Origin: Ignavibacteriaceae bacterium
GTDB lineage: Bacteria > Bacteroidota > Ignavibacteria > Ignavibacteriales > Ignavibacteriaceae
Reading direction: 5' to 3'
DNA: 64,000 bases
Assembly (NCBI GenBank): GCA_014860115.1
Contig: JACZKK010000209.1
Span: forward strand, 1-64,000
Shown: piece after piece, positions 10,745 through 31,313 of the stretch
Position numbering within the stretch: position 1 is the first letter of the stretch
Layout of the letters: each line of letters starts with the position of its first letter
Notes under the pieces: model-generated
The model's database searches: none
Told to the model about the DNA's origin: nothing
Seen by the model: the letters and a program-made list of their open reading frames with translations, nothing else
Translations under genes and position numbers: made by a program

Positions 10745-12628
10745 TTATTTTTGCAACACCATCTTCTTAGTCTCAACAAAATCTTGTCCTGAACTTGATT
10801 CAGGGTCTCCTGCTATGAGTTGATAGAAATAAACTCCACTTGACAATCCATTCGCATCAAAGTTAACTTCATAACTTCCTGCAGGTTCTTCCTCATTAAC
10901 GAGTGTTACTATTTCAATGCCAAGAATATCATAAACTTTTAGTGATACAAATTGCCTATTGCTTATTGCATACTGAATACTGGTTGTCGGATTAAATGGA
11001 TTAGGATAATTCTGATTCAGAACAAATTCTGTTGGGAGAGTTACGGATTCTTCAACTGCATTTACTATTACTGTCCCATCAAATTCATCTGCACCAATGT
11101 CCGGGGTTACCGTGTTCCTTATCTGATAGTCAAAGTCATTAACTATTCCTCCGATCGGTTTGCCGCCTGATTCAAGATGTGTGGCTATAGATTCATCTAT
11201 ATGCAAGTATGGTTCAATAAAATGCGGCATCTCATTAATACTGTGCAAATCTTTTCCGGTTGACTGCCAATCTGCAAGCGTATAATAGTTTGTGCCCGCT
11301 CTTTTCACAAGGCAATTGTATTGATTTGTCTCAGAGTAAAGATCATTGTGGTCTGATATAAAGTTTGAGTTGGAAAAATCAACAATTGAAGCTGCACAGT
11401 ATGGTGACTCATCCCTTCTATTAACTAGAATATTATTATTCACTGTAACGTTTGAACAATCGTTTCTTATAAACAATGCAGCAGAGCCTTTCTGATTAGC
11501 TCCGCTCCCGGATAAATATACCGAGTTAAAATATATCTTTGCATAATTCTGCTTCCTTAATTCTATCCCACTTACCTTTGCACTGGTTTGCGTTGAGGCG
11601 CTTTGAATATCATAGATAATATTGTTATAAACTGAATTAACGCAGCCAGAATATCCATTGCATCCATTCAATAATATCCCTATCCCGCCTGTAGTATCGC
11701 CAGCATCTACGTGAATATTGAATATCACGTTATTATTTATTTTCTCTCCAATACCAGCAACGGAAACTATACCGGGACTATAAACAAGACTGGAATTATT
11801 TCTAATGTTTTGAATAATATTAAATTCAACAACGGTTCTTTGGCAGAAGAATAAATTGATACCCCAGGAAATCAGGCTGTCAGTTTCTGAACCAATTTTG
11901 TTTCCGCGAATTATATTTCCGAAAGGTCGGTATGAATATGAAATTATACTGATTCCGATGCCGGCTTTTTTAATAAAATTATTTTCAATCAGGTTACTAT
12001 CAGGAGTGAATGGTCCACTCTCATGTACAAATAATAATGCACATCCTGAACCTGCATAATCTTCGCATTCAAAATTTATATTCTTTATTACATTGTGTTT
12101 TGAATTATTTACGAACACAATACCATCGTTAAAACTCCATTGAGCATTTTTATTAGAATGAATTCTAAGGGTAGTAGCACCGGTTAAACCGATTCCATCT
12201 ATTGTCACATAACTTGTGTTTATAAAGCAGAGCACTGATCGCCCATTTCCTTCAATTGTAATATTCTTGTCAACGGCTGGTCTGATGGTTACCCTGCTGC
12301 TTGTTCCTGTCCCGGGAATTGGTCCATTTAATCTGAAACCATACTGACTGGATGATGCAGTATATAAATCATCAATTAACTCAAGGATTATATCTCCTTC
12401 AACTCCATCAATACTGAGTTTATTAAATGCTGAATCAAGTGTTGGGAAAGATCCCGCACTGCCTACAGAATATGTTCCTGCCTGAAGACCGCTGGAAACT
12501 GGTCCATCAATTTTTTCTGGAACTGAATACTCTGCCATTCTTCTGAAAATCTCATTTTCTTGTGAGAAGATTTGTGTGGTCAGAAGGGACAGTAACAAAA
12601 CTGTCAAGAGAACTATTAGGGTTTTCAT
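10745..12628 (-). CDS. Secreted right-handed beta-helix protein with T9SS sorting domain
   Basis: A 627-residue exported protein. The N-terminal signal peptide is MKTLIVLLTVLLLSLLTTQIFSQ. The central part (about 110-460) is a parallel beta-helix with repeated N-rich turns (NSKHNVIKNINFE, DSNLIENNFIKKAG, GNIIRGNKIGS), as in pectate-lyase-like or nitrous-oxide-reductase-accessory-like folds. No catalytic set is recognised. The last ~95 residues are a type A CTD (FVLNQNYPNPFNPTT ... YFYQL ... VETKKMVLQK) that directs secretion and surface attachment through the type IX system. Repetitive DNA interrupts the CTD coding at two places. AAGGAG lies 7 bases before the ATG. Likely target of the neighbouring HTCS. 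Substrate unknown. Confidence 0.85.
   Translation of the reverse strand: MKTLIVLLTVLLLSLLTTQIFSQENEIFRRMAEYSVPEKIDGPVSSGLQAGTYSVGSAGSFPTLDSAFNKLSIDGVEGDIILELIDDLYTASSSQYGFRLNGPIPGTGTSSRVTIRPAVDKNITIEGNGRSVLCFINTSYVTIDGIGLTGATTLRIHSNKNAQWSFNDGIVFVNNSKHNVIKNINFECEDYAGSGCALLFVHESGPFTPDSNLIENNFIKKAGIGISIISYSYRPFGNIIRGNKIGSETDSLISWGINLFFCQRTVVEFNIIQNIRNNSSLVYSPGIVSVAGIGEKINNNVIFNIHVDAGDTTGGIGILLNGCNGYSGCVNSVYNNIIYDIQSASTQTSAKVSGIELRKQNYAKIYFNSVYLSGSGANQKGSAALFIRNDCSNVTVNNNILVNRRDESPYCAASIVDFSNSNFISDHNDLYSETNQYNCLVKRAGTNYYTLADWQSTGKDLHSINEMPHFIEPYLHIDESIATHLESGGKPIGGIVNDFDYQIRNTVTPDIGADEFDGTVIVNAVEESVTLPTEFVLNQNYPNPFNPTTSIQYAISNRQFVSLKVYDILGIEIVTLVNEEEPAGSYEVNFDANGLSSGVYFYQLIAGDPESSSGQDFVETKKMVLQK
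10786..10806. repeat. In-frame palindrome inside the CTD coding sequence
   Basis: CCTGAA (10788-10793), CTTGA, TTCAGG (10799-10804), extended by two wobble pairs. It encodes the segment DPESSSGQD between YFYQLIAG and FVETKK, where the sister CTDs have only SAGSFSETKK or QLNNFTDTKK. Confidence 0.6.
10951..10985. repeat. Degenerate heptamer tandem repeat in CTD coding
   Basis: Five 7-bp units on the plus strand: ATTGCCT, ATTGCTT, ATTGCAT, ACTGAAT, ACTGGTT (consensus AYTGNNT). They encode SIQYAISNRQ just before VSLKVYD. The 35-bp tract resembles the short tandemly repeated heptamers known from other bacteria. Confidence 0.55.
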
Positions 12629-12747
12629 TGGTGCACTCCTTAAAAAATGATTGAAAATGGTTTTTAAAGTCGCACCACAAATAAAATAGAATGAGGTGGG
12701 GGGAGTTATTAACTATGTATTGAAGACTTGTACTATTTCGCCAATAT

Positions 12748-12789
12748 CTTGCAGTTATGTCTCATCGACTTGCATTTATGTATCATGCT
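12748..12789. promoter_or_regulatory. 21-bp direct repeat, candidate HTCS/AraC operator
   Basis: Two head-to-tail copies of CTTGCAnTTATGTnTCAT start at 12748 and 12769, exactly 21 bp apart, with 16 of 18 positions identical. They lie 120-161 bp upstream of the beta-helix gene and just past the end of the HTCS gene. AraC-type DNA-binding domains classically bind direct half-sites spaced by 21 bp, so this is a plausible site for the HTCS response domain. Binding is inferred. Confidence 0.55.
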
Positions 12790-12862: not shown

Positions 12863-15800
12863 TTAGCTTATAATGTCCCTTGGTGGATAGCCAAATTCCT
12901 CCTTAAAACATCTTGAAAAATATGCAGGACTTGAGAAACCAACCGAGTAAGCTATCTCTGATACATTTCCTTTTTCTTCTTCAATCATCTGCTTGGCGCG
13001 GAATAATCTTACTGTCCTGACATACTGGCTTGGTGATTTTCCAACGAGTGCTCTCAGTTTTTTGTGAAAGTGTGTTCTGCTCAATCCAACTTCGCTGCTG
13101 CACTCTTCTATACTAAATTCTTCTTCTGACAAATGTTTTTCTATTACTTCCAATACCTTTGCCAGAAACTTTTCATCTATGCTTTTTAGTTTTTTCTCCA
13201 CTGGCTTAGATAGAAATTCTCCCTTGCTGAATTTTTCCTGCAGCTTCTTCCTGATGTTGATCAGGTTTTCTACTCTTACCCGGAGCTCCTGAAGATCAAA
13301 TGGTTTCGTAAGGTAATCATCTGCTCCTGTTTGTAATCCTTCTATCTTATTTTCCTGTCCTGATTTAGCCGTTAATATTATGATTGGAATATGGCTGGTT
13401 CTTTCATCGTTCTTCAATACCCGAGTGAGTTCATTGCCATCCATCTTAGGCATCATCAGGTCACTGATTATCAAATCCGGAATAATATTCTCTGCCATTC
13501 TCACTCCCTGTTCACCATTCACTGCTTCTTCAACTGCATAAGTATCAGAAAGAGATTCCTTTATATACTCCCTCATATCATAATTGTCTTCAACTACAAG
13601 TATTGTTGTTCTACTTTCATCCGGTATCATTTCTGATTCTACTAAAATTCTTGGGCCCATATATTCAGCATCATCAATCGGAGTTACTTCTTTATGTACC
13701 TCTTTCTCTGCTACTAATATTTCATCATCCTTCAGATGTGCTCTTCCCAACGGCAGACTGATTGTAAATTCTGTCCAACCTTTTTCCTTCTCTTCAGGGT
13801 TACTTTCTTTGCTATCTACACTTATGCTGCCGTGATGTAATTCTATCAACTCTTTAACCAGGGCTAGTCCTATTCCCGTCCCTTCATACTCTTTTATTTG
13901 AGAAGAATCAACCTGGTAGAATCGATCAAATAATTTTGGAAGTTCTTTTCGTGGTATTCCAATTCCGGTATTCCTTATTCTAATTTCAACAGTGTTATTT
14001 AAGGTTTCACTAATGTTGATAATAACATTTTCTCTCTCCGGAGTGAACTTGAATGCATTTGATAATAAATTAGAAAACGTCTTAAACATTTTCTCCCGGT
14101 CAAAATAGACTTCTACAAATTCTTTGTCTGACTTTATCTTGATCATCACATCTCTGGCTTCCGAAAGAGATTCAAATGAAAGTGCTATTCCTTTAATGAA
14201 TGAAATAATGTTTGCAGGCGAAGCTTCTAACTTTAGTTTGCCTGCATCCAGTTTGGAAAGATCAAGTAGTTGATTTACAAGCTGTAAAAGCCTTCTGGAA
14301 TTTCTGGTTATTATTGAGGCGTCTTTAACAGGATTGGTTGACTGATTTTTTTCTATTTTCTCTGCCGGTCCTAGTATTAAAGTTAGTGGCGTCCGGAATT
14401 CGTGTGAGATGTTAGCAAAGAAATCAGACTTCATCTTAGCAATCTCTTCAAGCTTCTCTGCGTGCTCTGATTCTAATACTAATTTTTGTCTCAACCGCTG
14501 TCTGTTTAAATAAAATCTTGTTGAGACGACGAATATAGAAACCAAAACTATCGTATATAAAAGATAAGCCCACCACGTTTTCCACCAGGGTGGAAGGATA
14601 ATTATTTTGAGTGATGTACCGGCTTCATTCCATACTCGATTACAGGTTGAGCCTTTTACTTTAAAGGTATATTCACCGGGATTTAAATTAGGATAAGTAG
14701 CAAATCGTCTCGTTCCACAGTAAACCCACTCTTTATCTATTCCTTCCATCAGGTAAGCGTACTGGTTCTCCTCACTGTTTATATAACTTAAAGCAGCAAA
14801 TTCAAGAGTCAGATAATTATCATCATGCTTTAACTCAATTTCTTTCCCGAAGGAAGAATACTTATCAAATTTCTTAAAAGCTGTAATCGCAATTGGTGGT
14901 ATGAAAGTATCTTCTTTAATACTATCAGGATGAAATCGTATAAATCCATTTTTTCCGCCAAAACATATTTTCCCATCCTTCATCTTACATCCTACCTGAT
15001 TCCATAATTTAATCTCAGGGAAATAATTGGCAGCGTAAAAATCTTTAAACTTTGCTGTGTGAGGATCGAATCTAGTCACTCCTTTAGATGTACTAATCCA
15101 CAAATTGCTTTGATCATCTTCAATTATCTGCTTTACCCCTTCACTGAGAAAACCATCATTGCCATAAAAACGTGAAAAATTATTTTTTGATCGGTTAAAC
15201 CTTACTAATCCGGTACCACATCCTAACCATAGAGTTTTATCTTTATCCTCGTAGAACGAATAAAAACTATTATCAATTATAGTTGAAGAATCTTCAGAGA
15301 CCGAATTATACACCCTAATCGAATCCTTATTTGGATCATAGCAATGCAGACTGCTTGAGAACCCACCAAACCAAATTAACCCGAAAGAGTCTTCGTAAAT
15401 AGTCCAAATCTGATATTTAATGTTAATAATTAATTTTCTCTCTTTTGTTTTAGTAAAGAATTTAAATAGATCACCTGCCAAAGTACCAATCCAAAAATAA
15501 TTTTCATCTCTTTGATAAAATCCAAAAATAAATTCGGAAAAAGTCGCGCCTACAGAGTCTAGGTAGCAAGTCCATTTATCATCTTTATTTGACTTATAAA
15601 GACCACCCACCGTTGGGGCAATTAATTTATTCCCTGATATGTCGTGACCAATCCCCCAATCATTATAATTATATTTAGAAATTACTTTATGTGACTTTGA
15701 ATCAAGTATTCCCCATGCTTGCTGAGTACCAACCCAAAAGATTCCTTCACTATCTTCAAATAAATCAGTAACACCAGTTAAATTAAAATTTGATTTATCA

Positions 15801-16954
15801 AAGGAATGGGAATCATTTGTGTATTTTTCAAATATTGGTGAGGGAATTTCTAATTTATTCACGCCACGGGAATTCGTGCTTATCCACATTGATCCAGATC
15901 TATCTAAGATAATTGCGGAGATCTCGTTTGCGCTCAAGCTTTCCGGATTACTTGCTTTATAAATATAATTAGTAAAAGTTTTTGTGCTTTTATTAAAAAC
16001 ATCAATTCCATGCTGGGTACCAAGCCAAATAAGACCCGTACCATCAATACACAACGATAGAATTGTATTCCTTGCTAGCCCAACCGAAGTATTTGGATTA
16101 TTATTGTATAAAGTGAAGACTTCTGAATTTTTATCAAATTTTAATAATCCTCCATCTGTTCCAATCCATAAAACACCTTCCCCATCTTCAATTATTGCCT
16201 GAAGCCAATACTGCCTGGTTTTTGGATCACCCCACTGATTATTTGGATAATGCCAGTAGTGATAAAATTTATTTGTTTCTCTGTCAAACTTATCAAGTCC
16301 GCCTCCAGTTGCTAACCAAAGTGTCCCAGACTTGTCTTCATAAATACCATTAACTGAGTTATGACCAAGACTATTTGGATCATCTTCGTTATGTAAAAAT
16401 TGTGTAAAAGAATCACTTGCCTCATTGTATTTATAAAATCCGTATGCTGTACCAATCCACATTACATCATGCTTATCAAAATAAACTTCCAACACCCAGT
16501 TACCCCATTCGGTCGCTGGATGCTGAGGATCCGGCAGGTAATTTTTGAATGTAATTGTTTCAGGATCAAATTTTTCGAGCCCGCCATTGAATGATGCAAA
16601 CCAGATATTTCCTTGATTATCTTCACTGATTGTTCCCGGTAAGTTGTAGTATAAAACTTTAGACTTTTTAGGATATTTATAAGAGGTGAAGGTATAGCCA
16701 TCGTATCGATCGAGACCTTCATCAGTCAAAAACCAGAGATAACCTGTACGGTCTTGATAAATAGAACTAACACTTACTGATGACATACCTTGTTCAACAC
16801 CGAAATGCTGGAAAGAGAGATTTGATTTTTGTGCGCTGACTTGGTCAGGCAAAGAGAGGAATATCAAGAACAGAAATAAAAGACGAAATGAAAAAATAGA
16901 AATATTAGTCCTTCTGATTTTTTTTTGCTCCCATATTTTCAGAGAATTAGACAC
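12863..16954 (-). CDS. Hybrid two-component system (propeller sensor, kinase, receiver, AraC output)
   Basis: One-protein signalling system of the HTCS class, which senses a ligand in the periplasm and controls transcription directly. About 1363 residues. A signal/anchor segment (FSFRLLFLFLIFLSL) comes first, then a two-component regulator propeller with many DxxGxLWxGT-type repeats to about residue 700. After it come a Y_Y_Y domain, a membrane segment (WWKTWWAYLLYTIVLVSIF), HisKA with phospho-His in FANISHEFRTP (about 850), HATPase (NLLSNAFKF, GTGIGLAL), receiver with Asp in IISDLMMPKMDG, and AraC HTH (VGLSRTHFHKKLRALVG). I start at GTG 16954, 4 bases after the TonB receptor stop. The longer frame would add 53 residues inside that gene and bury the signal peptide. 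Confidence 0.9.
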   Translation of the reverse strand: MSNSLKIWEQKKIRRTNISIFSFRLLFLFLIFLSLPDQVSAQKSNLSFQHFGVEQGMSSVSVSSIYQDRTGYLWFLTDEGLDRYDGYTFTSYKYPKKSKVLYYNLPGTISEDNQGNIWFASFNGGLEKFDPETITFKNYLPDPQHPATEWGNWVLEVYFDKHDVMWIGTAYGFYKYNEASDSFTQFLHNEDDPNSLGHNSVNGIYEDKSGTLWLATGGGLDKFDRETNKFYHYWHYPNNQWGDPKTRQYWLQAIIEDGEGVLWIGTDGGLLKFDKNSEVFTLYNNNPNTSVGLARNTILSLCIDGTGLIWLGTQHGIDVFNKSTKTFTNYIYKASNPESLSANEISAIILDRSGSMWISTNSRGVNKLEIPSPIFEKYTNDSHSFDKSNFNLTGVTDLFEDSEGIFWVGTQQAWGILDSKSHKVISKYNYNDWGIGHDISGNKLIAPTVGGLYKSNKDDKWTCYLDSVGATFSEFIFGFYQRDENYFWIGTLAGDLFKFFTKTKERKLIINIKYQIWTIYEDSFGLIWFGGFSSSLHCYDPNKDSIRVYNSVSEDSSTIIDNSFYSFYEDKDKTLWLGCGTGLVRFNRSKNNFSRFYGNDGFLSEGVKQIIEDDQSNLWISTSKGVTRFDPHTAKFKDFYAANYFPEIKLWNQVGCKMKDGKICFGGKNGFIRFHPDSIKEDTFIPPIAITAFKKFDKYSSFGKEIELKHDDNYLTLEFAALSYINSEENQYAYLMEGIDKEWVYCGTRRFATYPNLNPGEYTFKVKGSTCNRVWNEAGTSLKIIILPPWWKTWWAYLLYTIVLVSIFVVSTRFYLNRQRLRQKLVLESEHAEKLEEIAKMKSDFFANISHEFRTPLTLILGPAEKIEKNQSTNPVKDASIITRNSRRLLQLVNQLLDLSKLDAGKLKLEASPANIISFIKGIALSFESLSEARDVMIKIKSDKEFVEVYFDREKMFKTFSNLLSNAFKFTPERENVIINISETLNNTVEIRIRNTGIGIPRKELPKLFDRFYQVDSSQIKEYEGTGIGLALVKELIELHHGSISVDSKESNPEEKEKGWTEFTISLPLGRAHLKDDEILVAEKEVHKEVTPIDDAEYMGPRILVESEMIPDESRTTILVVEDNYDMREYIKESLSDTYAVEEAVNGEQGVRMAENIIPDLIISDLMMPKMDGNELTRVLKNDERTSHIPIIILTAKSGQENKIEGLQTGADDYLTKPFDLQELRVRVENLINIRKKLQEKFSKGEFLSKPVEKKLKSIDEKFLAKVLEVIEKHLSEEEFSIEECSSEVGLSRTHFHKKLRALVGKSPSQYVRTVRLFRAKQMIEEEKGNVSEIAYSVGFSSPAYFSRCFKEEFGYPPRDIIS

Positions 16955-16958
16955 GTTC

Positions 16959-19643
16959 TTAAAACCCCACTTCAATTCCCAACCGCAATGAAAATGAAGG
17001 CTGATATCTGTATGCCTGACCGTAAGTTGGGTTTGGATTAATTGGTTCGCCGTTCTCATCAACTCCAAAATATTTTCTTTGATCAATATCAACAGGTTTA
17101 CGCTGGCCAGCAATATGAAAAAGATCGAGAATCAGTCTCGGCTGTAATGTAGATAATAAATCTAACTCGTACATCAAACGAGCATTCAAATCCCAGATAG
17201 CCGGCGTTCTTCCTGCAGAACCTCTTGGTGAGAGATATTTTACCCCAAAATCTGTGTATGCTAATTCGCTCAGTGGTGTGCCGCTTTGTGCTATGAAGCT
17301 AATTCCTGTTGATAAGTCGAATGAAAAACGATACGATCCCGAAAATTTGAAAACGTGCGTTCGGTCATTTGGCACTAAGCCAGTTGTATTGGTTCTTGAA
17401 GTCGAAAGATCATCAAACATAGAATTTGCATTTGGGAATGCCCCGTGATAAGATGCATCAAAAAGACCCTCATAATTGCCATAATCTTTTGAAAGGACAT
17501 ACGATGCAAGAAAATTAAAATACTCGTCACCAGTTCGTTGAATTGAAAGAATCAACGCAGTGTAATCTCTTTGCGGTTTGGGCCATTCAGATAAAAATCC
17601 TCTTCCAGGATTGCCGTACTGATATCTGCTTTCATCGGATAACCAGACATCGTCAATACCTTGACCCAGCGTCCTGTAAACTCCCTGAATTCCAGCTTTG
17701 ATTCCCAAGCCAATAAGTCTTTCGTAACCTACACTAAACTCATCATAATATTGTGCTTGCAGGTCTTCAACTTCCGGTCGTATAATATGACGGAAATTAT
17801 AAAGAGTATCTCCGCCTGTGTTATCCTCACGCGGGTCATGGTCAAAAAGAATCCAGTAATCATAACCGCTTTCTGAATGATAATTTACTGATTGGAATAA
17901 TGCGAATTCTTGAGAAAATCTTCCGTATGATCCAAAGATTCTATTTGTGCCTTCCGCATCTGGGAGAAAAACAATTCCAATGCGCGGCTGCAATGGAACC
18001 TCAATTGTCTGCGCCACTTCTCCATTAGAACCAATGATTGTATGTCCATCCCACCTTAATCCTGCGGTAACATTAAGTGAAGGAAATATTCGCCAGCTAT
18101 CCTGTACAAAGACTGAGGGAATTCTGTTTGAAACTTCGCCCCAACCTTTACCTATAGCCTCTCCATAATAAACTGAGTCATATCGTTCGATAGTACGATA
18201 ATCATAGATATTATTTACCCCATTGGTTTTGTATTCAACTCCACCATTTAGTAAGTGATCTCCCAAAAGAAAATTTGCCGAAACTCTTCCTACTGTGCTG
18301 TGCCTGTAAGAATCCCAAGTAGACCCTACTCCACCTGACCAAAAATTATTTAAATAATCAACGTAAAAAACTTCGCTTCTACCTACGTCAGTGGCTCCTT
18401 CCCCTGTATCGCGGCGATCCACCCTGGCTACTAATGCTTGCAAAGAAATATTTTTACCAATCCAGTAAGTACCGCTCAAAGAATAATTAATTCCGCCTTC
18501 AACAATATTTTGTAAATATGGATCAGGATTTGCTAAGCTATCCGGTGGAACATTTATACCACGACCAACTGCATCGCGTTGAGTTGGATCACCAGTAATA
18601 GTAAAATTCAAATTCAGATTATCAAGTGCTTTCCAGCTCAACTTTCCTGCGAATGAATTAATTAAAGTTTTGTCAACGTAATTACCAAAGCCTGGTACAT
18701 CAACATCTCTGTTATTAAAATTTGGGTTATAGGCCGCGTAAAACCAAAGTTTGTCAAGAATTATTGGTCCACCTAAACCAAATCCAAAATCATAATTAGT
18801 AAAATCGCCTTGATTCACATCTAGTGAACCATACTTCTGATTCTCGGCTAACTTATTACTTGTATAAAAACCAAAAATAGAACCATGAAATTCATTAGAA
18901 CCTGAATATGTTACTACATTTATCAATCCACCAAGTGAAGCTCGATTTTCAACATCATAGCCACCGGTTTTAACTTCAATCTCCTGTATAAAATTGTAAG
19001 GAAGGTTTGTTGAGTTTGCACCGATCAAAGGATCTGTGACTTCCACACCATCAACAAAATATTTGTTTTCAAATCCTGTTGCACCGCCGATGTTCGCTTC
19101 ATCACCATAAAAGCTTGTGTTAGCTTGAGGCAACAAGGTTGCGATATTTCTGTAATTCCTGTCCACTGGGAGCTGTTCAAAACTTGCAGAATTAATATTA
19201 CCACCATAAGTAGTCGATACAGGATCGATAACGGGTTTCTTTCCGGATACGGTGATTTCAGGCAGAGTAATTGTCTGATGCATTAATTTAATTTCGCCAA
19301 GGTTTGTAGTTTTTCCTAAAAGAACTTGAACATTTTCAAGATTCAATAAACTAAATCCAACAGCACTTACACTAATCGTAAAGTCACCAACCGGTAAGGA
19401 TAAAATTCGGAAATATCCTTTTTCGTTTGTGGTAGTGCCTCGGCTTCCTTGCAAACTTTTACTCTGTAGAGAAACGTTTACTCCTACCAGGGAAGTACCT
19501 GTACTATCTACTATCCGACCTTCGATATTGCCAGTGATATCCTGTGAGACAGAATATGGTGAGAGAAGAAAAACTAAAATGAAGATGGAACAAAGATTCA
19601 TTCCGAAGATTGGGACAAAGTTCCTTAAAATAAGAAGTGCCAT
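16959..19643 (-). CDS. TonB-dependent outer-membrane receptor with carboxypeptidase-like N-domain
   Basis: Predicted 894-residue outer-membrane transporter energised by TonB. A signal peptide (LCSIFILVFLLSPYSVSQ) is followed by a carboxypeptidase regulatory-like beta-sandwich (IEGRIVDSTGTSLVGVNVSL, about 38-120). Then come a plug domain (about 130-250, with VEVTDPLIGANSTNLPYNFIQEIEVKTGGYDVENR) and a barrel that ends in LRLGIEVGF with a terminal aromatic. GGGAGGG lies just before the ATG at 19643. No SusD-like gene follows, unlike polysaccharide utilisation loci. Instead the HTCS gene follows after 4 bases, suggesting the receptor delivers or reports the same ligand. Its leader contains an 85-bp element with inverted ends. 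Substrate unknown. Confidence 0.88.
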   Translation of the reverse strand: MALLILRNFVPIFGMNLCSIFILVFLLSPYSVSQDITGNIEGRIVDSTGTSLVGVNVSLQSKSLQGSRGTTTNEKGYFRILSLPVGDFTISVSAVGFSLLNLENVQVLLGKTTNLGEIKLMHQTITLPEITVSGKKPVIDPVSTTYGGNINSASFEQLPVDRNYRNIATLLPQANTSFYGDEANIGGATGFENKYFVDGVEVTDPLIGANSTNLPYNFIQEIEVKTGGYDVENRASLGGLINVVTYSGSNEFHGSIFGFYTSNKLAENQKYGSLDVNQGDFTNYDFGFGLGGPIILDKLWFYAAYNPNFNNRDVDVPGFGNYVDKTLINSFAGKLSWKALDNLNLNFTITGDPTQRDAVGRGINVPPDSLANPDPYLQNIVEGGINYSLSGTYWIGKNISLQALVARVDRRDTGEGATDVGRSEVFYVDYLNNFWSGGVGSTWDSYRHSTVGRVSANFLLGDHLLNGGVEYKTNGVNNIYDYRTIERYDSVYYGEAIGKGWGEVSNRIPSVFVQDSWRIFPSLNVTAGLRWDGHTIIGSNGEVAQTIEVPLQPRIGIVFLPDAEGTNRIFGSYGRFSQEFALFQSVNYHSESGYDYWILFDHDPREDNTGGDTLYNFRHIIRPEVEDLQAQYYDEFSVGYERLIGLGIKAGIQGVYRTLGQGIDDVWLSDESRYQYGNPGRGFLSEWPKPQRDYTALILSIQRTGDEYFNFLASYVLSKDYGNYEGLFDASYHGAFPNANSMFDDLSTSRTNTTGLVPNDRTHVFKFSGSYRFSFDLSTGISFIAQSGTPLSELAYTDFGVKYLSPRGSAGRTPAIWDLNARLMYELDLLSTLQPRLILDLFHIAGQRKPVDIDQRKYFGVDENGEPINPNPTYGQAYRYQPSFSLRLGIEVGF

Positions 19644-29072: not shown

Positions 29073-31313
29073 ATGAGAATTTTATTTTTTTTGTTAATCG
29101 TATCAACATTACTTTCCACTGCACCTGCACAACAATTCATCAACTGGAAAAATTACACCGCATTAAAAAATGTTCAGGATGTAACGATAGGTACTGATGT
29201 ATTTTGGAGTGCGGCTACCGGAGGGGCATTTCAATTCTCATCAACCTCAAATCAATTTACAACACTTCATAAATCTGATGGACTTCAAGGTAATTCACTT
29301 ACATCCGTGATCGTAGATAATTCTGGAAGAACGTGGTTCGGCAGTATTGAGGGCATAATTGATGTCTATAACACCAGCAATAACGGTCTTGAAGTGATTC
29401 TCGATATTTACAACTCAAATCAAATAAATAAAAGGATAAATGATTTTGCTTCGGTTGGTGATACAATAATTGTTTCGACCGACTTTGGCGTTTCTTTGAT
29501 AAATGCAAACAGCTTTCTCTTCTTTGATACTTTTTTCAAGTTCGGCACTTTTCCTTCCAATACAAGAGTGAATAATACTTTCAAGTCCGGCTTGTTCTAT
29601 GTTTGCACTGACCAGGGTGTTGCAATTCAAAAACCGGGAGCGTTAAATCTATCTGCACCCGAATCCTGGAACGTTTATTCACTCGCGCAGGGACTTCCAT
29701 CAAATAAAACTTTGAAGGCCGGCTTATTCCAGGGAGAATTAATCGTGAGCACAGACAAAGGTTTTTCACGTTTTGCAAATAATACGTGGAGCAATTTTAT
29801 ACCAGATCTCGCCAATATTAATATCAACGACTTTCAAATCAGCGGTGATTCTATTCTCATCGTTGCACAAAGCAAAATCTACCTTTATTATAATCAGATT
29901 CTTAGTGAGTTGTACAATTCCATCGTGCCTCTTACAAAAATTAAATACAAAGAAAATTTCGGATTTGTTTGTGCAAGTACTAATGGTACTCTGTTCCTGA
30001 ACAACGCTCTGGCTGGTGATTTTATTTCACCAAATGCACCACCAGTTAATCAATTCCCGTCAATGAGTGTTGATGCAAACAGTGCTCTTTGGTCTGCAAG
30101 CGGCAAGGATGGAAGAGGAGTTGGTTATTATACTTATAACGGGCAACTCTGGGAAATTTTTAATACTGCCAACACACCTGAGCTACCGTACAATGATGTT
30201 TACCATTCATGGACTAACGGCAACTCTGCTTATTTAGGAACCTGGGGTTTCGGATTTCTGGAAGTAAATGGCGCTAATAAAAAACTTTTTAACAGAACTA
30301 ATTCAGGTATGCAGGGAATACCACAGAATCCGGACTTTTTAGTGATCACAGGCTTTGGAAAAGACTCTCGAAATAATTTATGGGTTCTCAATTATTGGGC
30401 AGTTGACAGAAATACTTTATCAATGAGAACTCCTGATAGTGTCTGGTATCATTTTACAATTCCTGCAGCGCAGAACAGAGTTTTACTCGGACATGAAAAT
30501 CTTGCAATAGATCCTTATGACACAAAATGGTTTACTTGCGCGGATCCTTCAAGATTGGGTTTGTTCTATCTCAACGAAAATAAAACTTTCGAAGATCCAT
30601 CTGATGACAGATCTGATTATCTGACTACTGTTGATGGATTAAATACGAATGATATTCGTGATGTTGCGGTTGATAGAAGAGGAGACGTGTGGGTTGCTAC
30701 AAGTCTCGGAGTAAACATAATAACAAATACCAGTGCGGTACCGACCTCAGGAAGTGCTTCTCTCAGGATATCAAGTGTTTTTACTTTACGTCAGCAGTCG
30801 GTTAACGCAATTGCTATTGATCCACTAAACCAGAAATGGATTGGTACAAATGAAGGTCTTCTTCTTGTTAATTCAGATGGTTCACGACTGATTACCACAT
30901 TCACAGCACAGAACAGTGCTTTGCTTTCTAATATAATAAGAAGTATTGCAATTGATGAGAACAAAGGGATCGTGTACGTCGGTACTGATGAAGGATTAAC
31001 TTCATTTGAAACTCCATATATAAAACCACTGGAAAGCTTTGAAGAACTTTTCGTTTATCCAAATCCATATAAAATAAAAAGCGGCAATAATCTTTTAACT
31101 ATTGATGGATTAATCCGTGATACAGACATTAAAATTTTAACCATTGATGGAACTCTTATCACTGAATTTTCTTCACCCGGCGGAAGAACCGCTTACTGGG
31201 ATGGGAAGAATGATAATGGTGAGTTGGTCAGTACAGGAGTGTATATCATTGTTGCTTTTGATACGGAAGGAAACAATATTGTAACTGGTAAAGTTGCCGT
31301 GCTGCGTGAATAA
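29073..31313 (+). CDS. PorZ-like propeller protein with C-terminal T9SS-type domain
   Basis: A 746-residue exported protein with a signal peptide (ILFFLLIVSTLLSTAPAQQ) and two-component-regulator-type propeller repeats throughout (GNSLTSVIVDNSGRTWFGSIEG, LPSNKTLKAGLF, DVAVDRRGDVWVATSLG, AIDPLNQKWIGTNEG). It ends in a beta-sandwich (FVYPNPYKIKSGNN ... YWDGKNDNGELVSTGVYIIVAF). This layout and length resemble PorZ, the surface component of the T9SS attachment complex. It could also be an ordinary propeller protein. GGGAG lies 8 bases before the ATG. The gene is monocistronic with palindromes downstream. Confidence 0.7.
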   Translation: MRILFFLLIVSTLLSTAPAQQFINWKNYTALKNVQDVTIGTDVFWSAATGGAFQFSSTSNQFTTLHKSDGLQGNSLTSVIVDNSGRTWFGSIEGIIDVYNTSNNGLEVILDIYNSNQINKRINDFASVGDTIIVSTDFGVSLINANSFLFFDTFFKFGTFPSNTRVNNTFKSGLFYVCTDQGVAIQKPGALNLSAPESWNVYSLAQGLPSNKTLKAGLFQGELIVSTDKGFSRFANNTWSNFIPDLANININDFQISGDSILIVAQSKIYLYYNQILSELYNSIVPLTKIKYKENFGFVCASTNGTLFLNNALAGDFISPNAPPVNQFPSMSVDANSALWSASGKDGRGVGYYTYNGQLWEIFNTANTPELPYNDVYHSWTNGNSAYLGTWGFGFLEVNGANKKLFNRTNSGMQGIPQNPDFLVITGFGKDSRNNLWVLNYWAVDRNTLSMRTPDSVWYHFTIPAAQNRVLLGHENLAIDPYDTKWFTCADPSRLGLFYLNENKTFEDPSDDRSDYLTTVDGLNTNDIRDVAVDRRGDVWVATSLGVNIITNTSAVPTSGSASLRISSVFTLRQQSVNAIAIDPLNQKWIGTNEGLLLVNSDGSRLITTFTAQNSALLSNIIRSIAIDENKGIVYVGTDEGLTSFETPYIKPLESFEELFVYPNPYKIKSGNNLLTIDGLIRDTDIKILTIDGTLITEFSSPGGRTAYWDGKNDNGELVSTGVYIIVAFDTEGNNIVTGKVAVLRE

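Follow-up and report, generated by a model that had tools for sequence, protein, structure and literature searches.

Does a hybrid two-component system (HTCS) that carries an AraC-type DNA-binding domain (DBD) control the gene for the secreted protein that follows it on the chromosome, and through which DNA element would it do so? The question is raised by a locus within the 64,000 nucleotides of Ignavibacteriaceae DNA analysed here (hereafter, the window), in which an HTCS gene is followed by a gene for a T9SS-sorted beta-helix protein. The first-pass annotation had reported a two-copy direct repeat between the two genes and had proposed it as the HTCS operator.

The gap between the HTCS gene and the beta-helix gene

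Sequence comparison bore out the repeat: CTTGCAGTTATGTCTCAT (12748-12765) and CTTGCATTTATGTATCAT (12769-12786) are identical at 16 of 18 positions with a start-to-start distance of 21 bp. The start at 12748 given earlier stands; the last matching base is 12786 and not 12789. As had been stated, the repeat lies between the end of the HTCS gene and the start of the beta-helix gene and both are transcribed in the same direction, in a 234-bp gap that runs from the HTCS stop (12863) to the beta-helix ATG (12628). Read in the sense of transcription, on the minus strand that carries both genes, the half-site is ATGAnACATAAnTGCAAG. When direct repeats at spacings from 18 to 60 were sought across the 64-kb window, just one more reached 16 of 18 identities, at 31092 (spacing 42). 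In Markov shuffles the 43 spacings together produced 0.15 +/- 0.4 repeats of this quality per window, and spacing 21 produced none. The other repeat (31092-31151, 16/18 identity) lies within an ORF, 29073-31313.

The earlier domain calls for the two flanking genes hold (Table 1). The product of the first has, by Pfam, a Reg_prop propeller, Y_Y_Y, HisKA, HATPase_c, Response_reg and HTH_18/HTH_AraC domains, in that order, and so unites a periplasmic sensor, a histidine kinase, a receiver and an AraC-type DBD in a single polypeptide; in the PDB, its DBD is matched best by an HTCS REC+DBD chain, 12aw. The true start of the gene is probably after 16959, the position at which the upstream gene stops. 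The second protein begins with a signal-like N-terminus and carries a T9SS type A sorting domain, and an AlphaFold model built from four sequences (mean pLDDT 64) predicts a parallel beta-helix core, with Foldseek neighbours that include alginate lyase, the polysaccharide lyase RbmB and tailspikes.

Table 1. Features of the candidate operator and its surroundings in the window. Matrix scores are from a half-site PWM derived from other loci; offsets are relative to unit 4.
Feature	Coordinates	Strand	Sequence	PWM score (background p; offset)	Basis or remark
Candidate operator unit 1, distal half-site	12766..12786	-	ATGATACATAAATGCAAGTCG	8.8 (2e-4; -63)	Sequence; PWM
Candidate operator unit 2	12745..12765	-	ATGAGACATAACTGCAAGATA	12.9 (2e-5; -42)	With unit 1, the first-noticed repeat; PWM
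Candidate operator unit 3, variant half-site	12724..12744	-	TTGGCGAAATAGTACAAGTCT	-6.2 (0.06)	Box 2 (TACAAG) kept, box 1 altered
Candidate operator unit 4, promoter-proximal half-site	12703..12723	-	TCAATACATAGTTAATAACTC	8.0 (3e-4)	PWM; conservation
Predicted -7 promoter element	12678..12685	-	TTTATTTG		TTATTTG-type; alignment A1
HTCS gene	12863..17113	-			Pfam domains
Target gene: signal peptide, parallel beta-helix, T9SS type A sorting domain	10745..12628	-
TonB-receptor-like outer-membrane protein gene, upstream of the HTCS gene	16959..19643	-			Pfam

The original pair is real; it forms only the distal half of the element. Two more units follow in the same 21-bp register (12744-12703), so that the element extends over 84 bp rather than 39 and consists, on the gene strand, of four consecutive 21-bp units running from 12786 to 12703, followed 3' of unit 4 by CCCCCC and then TATTTTATTTG. 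The units were scored with a PWM whose training set was ten half-sites, drawn from five other loci that have only two units each. In seven out of seven candidate long loci, the window included and none of them used for training, this matrix placed units at -63, -42 and 0; these were also the three top peaks of the mean profile over the seven loci, with a fourth peak at -21. Four further long operators, likewise outside the training set, came from the model scan described below, making eleven in total. Sibling loci have a short operator, whose two units, at -21 and 0, are both strong. Conservation is highest in unit 4, where ACATAG is invariant across seven long operators. In the third unit of the long operators box 1 is altered and TACAAG or TGCAAG is often retained; a TAAATAGTACAAGTCT-type sequence occupies this position also in the orthologue in G003, in G001 and in G004. 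The orthologous locus of the same genus (G003:C207), where the DBD is 87% identical to that of the window and the beta-helix protein 70%, retains the four units together with the promoter segment, and model matches within the genus agree with this conservation.

Unit 4 abuts a promoter-like TTATTTG element, which resembles the Bacteroidetes -7 consensus TAnnTTTG. In 15 loci, whether the operator is long or short, 33-35 bp separate the unit-4 core from this TTATTTG-type element. The proximal half-site thus stands at a fixed distance from the predicted core promoter, as is characteristic of AraC-type class II activation.

21-bp repeats downstream of HTCS genes

The genome of the window and its relatives provided 86 non-coding gaps that follow HTCS genes. 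A repeat at spacing 21 with at least 12 of 16 identities was present in 32 of them, and every other spacing from 12 to 40 gave between 0 and 5. With a stricter cut-off of at least 13 of 16, there were 17 at spacing 21 as against 0.43 in shuffles, and at most two at other spacings. No spacing-21 repeats were found in HTCS coding DNA, and gaps without an HTCS neighbour yielded one in 58 in the first control set and four in 155 overall, with no peak at 21. The remaining 54 gaps lack such a repeat at the 12/16 cut-off; the targets of these HTCSs may lie elsewhere. In the wider Bacteroidota the downstream 21-bp signal was weaker (13/66) and partly made up of 7-bp simple repeats in Flavobacterium.

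HTCS clades differ in half-site sequence and share the 21-bp spacing. Over 494 pairs from 32 loci, DBD identity correlated with half-site similarity (Spearman rho 0.37, permutation p 0.0005). This covariation is the strongest indication, at the level of sequence, that the neighbouring HTCS reads the repeat. The Ignavibacteriaceae loci therefore share with Bacteroides-type operators both a direct repeat of about 21 bp near an HTCS gene and a motif that follows the DBD. The eleven long operators depart from that type in having more than two sites. When the gaps were examined for self-similarity to their best pair, we saw no general third or fourth unit outside the DBD clade of the window, which indicates that the long operator is specific to this clade and not a general HTCS trait. 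The DBD tree, itself poorly resolved, did not sort long and short operators into clades of their own.

Several of the gaps had other arrangements. At L062, two 21-bp pairs of GCAACA half-sites lie 72 bp apart in one gap, about 45-160 bp past the HTCS stop, a putative further multi-pair operator whose geometry differs from that of the window. L045, whose HTCS belongs to the same DBD clade, has a perfect direct repeat with a spacing of 26 rather than 21, about 95-150 bp past the stop. Directly downstream of some HTCS genes we also noted stand-alone proteins of 94-124 aa that resemble a T9SS C-terminal sorting domain alone (QNYPNPFxxKTxIKYC) and have no signal peptide; several are preceded by a 21-bp repeat whose half-site is CTGGTAGA. 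Such an ORF is the first one in L015, about 165 bp past the HTCS stop; others occur in L016, L049, L052, L055, L066, L067, L080 and L103, and in L253 it is the second ORF past the operator. In L091, L102, L110 and L111, the first ORF after the HTCS encodes a protein of about 62 aa with a single C-terminal membrane helix (GIYSLIIIITISLMLILFN); in the first three of these, a 21-bp repeat with a GCAA box is found in the same gap.

Related sites and the predicted regulon

The first-pass annotation had called for a genome scan for the same repeat upstream of other exported genes, and had named scattering without relation to promoters as the outcome that would speak against an operator. A search with the fixed 18-mer pattern returned seven forward and three reverse matches versus three and one for the reversed control; the matches were mostly due to chance, yet they led to the locus on C179. 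We searched six genomes of the genus with two sequence-only models, R1 (the proximal pair with the promoter) and R2 (the long operator). R1 found 19 sites at E<=2e-5, ten of them outside the training set, followed by a gap to 0.006. Four of these sites are in the genome of the window, on C56 (the window), C179, C107 and C195. Within the window, 12673-12785 was the only site and nothing else scored comparably; the same window-wide scan found no operator in the promoter region of the TonB-receptor-like gene.

Downstream genes were read out for 17 of the 19 in-genus sites and for four sites in other genera (the site of the window is the eighteenth, and that at G003:C403 fell outside the readout). 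Signal-like or lipoprotein N-termini, judged by eye without a signal-peptide predictor, were seen at all 17 and at all four. The sites are thus few and, wherever read out, precede genes with signal-like N-termini, which at this level excludes a scattering unrelated to promoters. Many of the genes behind R1 sites carry a T9SS sorting domain, and small lipoproteins are also among the targets; these take the place of the glycan-utilisation (susC/susD) targets typical of Bacteroides HTCS operators. Among 97 relatives, R1 matched in 12 genomes, including all ten that have an HTCS of the window's DBD clade, although nine of these ten had supplied training sites, so that the match between operator and DBD clade is consistent with the link and not independent support for it.

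In L252, L259, L265 and L270 the first two ORFs past the operator encode paired, related small lipoproteins of about 160-190 aa, in most of which the lipobox is of the GCQE type. Two proteins of this family, those of L252 and L256, matched no Pfam entry. At L256 (G001:C62, around 1719), a long operator, a small lipoprotein gene and an HTCS gene follow one another in the same direction, a gene order suggesting autoregulation.

A candidate mechanism and its relation to known systems

The proposal that the repeat is an HTCS operator and links the sensor with the secreted protein gains support from the enrichment of spacing 21, the covariation with the DBD, the promoter distance and the genome scan. 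In our best explanation, the element would serve the beta-helix gene as operator and promoter, and the adjacent HTCS would read it through its AraC-type DBD, acting as an activator and not as a repressor. With two helical turns to each 21-bp unit, the four half-sites would lie on one face of the DNA, ending beside the -7 element. Upon sensing its ligand, the HTCS would be phosphorylated and, without leaving the inner membrane, would most likely bind as a dimer to the strong units 1 and 2. This dimer would assist a second one to bind the weak unit 3 and the strong unit 4. The protein on unit 4, beside RNA polymerase, would contact it in a class II-type activation, and the T9SS-sorted secreted beta-helix protein would be made. 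If unit 3 has been tuned to be weak, activation would need the upstream dimer. We regard this explanation as very probable.

Whether unit 3 is a protein site is the chief uncertainty of the mechanism. The standard matrix misses it, so the four half-sites may instead be three and a spacer of fixed length: only units 1, 2 and 4 would be bound, with a dimer on units 1 and 2 recruiting a single DBD to unit 4. Unit 3 falls below background thresholds in nine of the eleven long operators, and units 1, 2 and 4 score well in all of them, as such a spacer would predict. Against a spacer stand the recurrent TACAAGT box of unit 3, with an information content of 19.6 bits compared with 22-23 for units 1 and 2, and the short operators of the training set, in which a full half-site occupies this position. 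We consider this variant, which overlaps with our best explanation, rather doubtful.

The operator might also be real and be read by another AraC-type regulator or a paralogous HTCS (for instance that of C179 or C195), the neighbouring HTCS reading a different site. This genome has four operators and at least three HTCSs whose DBDs fall into a single clade (55-100% identity to the DBD of the window), so that a paralogue could bind the operator of the window, and on C107 a long operator stands without an HTCS on its short contig. The position of the operator directly after the HTCS gene, their being kept together in G003, and the way the motif varies with the neighbouring DBD from locus to locus make this assignment unlikely. 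Least probable of all is that the element plays no regulatory part and is either what remains of a tandem duplication or a structure, RNA leader or terminator, belonging to the HTCS transcript. Slippage can create tandem repeats and the element does come after the HTCS stop codon, but the sequences at different loci are unrelated and nevertheless share the 21-bp spacing, and their distance to the promoter element is fixed. We rejected the slippage, RNA-leader and terminator readings on the grounds that no spacing peak or enrichment appears away from HTCS neighbours.

The preferred reading, with two dimers cooperating on four half-sites, can be extended to the clade. Tentatively, and with less confidence than in the operator itself, we suggest an HTCS clade with a rigid four-half-site operator, in which two membrane-anchored dimers would sit on one face of the DNA, a third half-site evolved to be weak would make output depend on both, siblings with two strong half-sites would need one dimer, and the regulon would comprise surface-secreted proteins in place of glycan-uptake functions. 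If this is true, promoters of the same genome differ in the number of receptors that they require. The locus provides a sequence-level handle on HTCS promoter choice, in a phylum where we found nothing experimental, and ties a sensor to its secreted product via a defined 84-bp candidate operator. Natural long and short operators are suited to tests of cooperation among membrane-held receptors on one promoter, and 21-bp self-similarity downstream of HTCS genes offers a generic sequence test for assigning targets to orphan HTCSs.

Elements of this arrangement occur in other AraC-type systems. MelR of E. coli, at melAB/melR, has more than one AraC-type site pair per regulatory region, as does the window, with a different site spacing and a soluble regulator; the title of a 2008 paper by Samarasinghe, cited in PMC4514859, speaks of four molecules of MelR. 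With AraC, XylS and MtlR (PMC4514859 for MtlR) the window shares direct-repeat half-sites, two boxes in each, upstream of a core promoter, those systems having two half-sites; a weaker downstream half-site has been reported for MelR, RhaS and MtlR. In contrast to AraC, XylS and MtlR, the regulator of the window is a one-piece membrane sensor kinase, and it is the proximal unit 4 that is best conserved and unit 3 that is weak.

That an HTCS operator takes the form of a 21-bp direct repeat was already known as a prediction for Bacteroides, in which 16 HTCS motifs were predicted as direct repeats averaging 21 bp (Ravcheev 2013, PMC3878776), and for Bacteroides HTCSs it was shown in vitro that the regulator parts bind DNA in a phosphorylation-dependent way, phosphorylation lifting the REC-DBD inhibition and favouring binding (PMC11253607). 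What appears to be new is that the operator has a rigid long form of four units beside a short form of two, that it occurs in Ignavibacteriaceae, and that the predicted regulon consists of secreted proteins and lies outside PULs; we did not find the four-unit form, the long/short dichotomy, this family context or such a regulon in the openly licensed papers that were searched. In Bacteroides thetaiotaomicron (PMC3878776), too, direct repeats of about 21 bp lie beside HTCS genes and their similarity tracks that of the DBD. There, each operator has two sites and controls glycan-utilisation (susC/susD) loci, whereas the Ignavibacteriaceae element has up to four phased units and stands before genes for T9SS cargo and lipoproteins.
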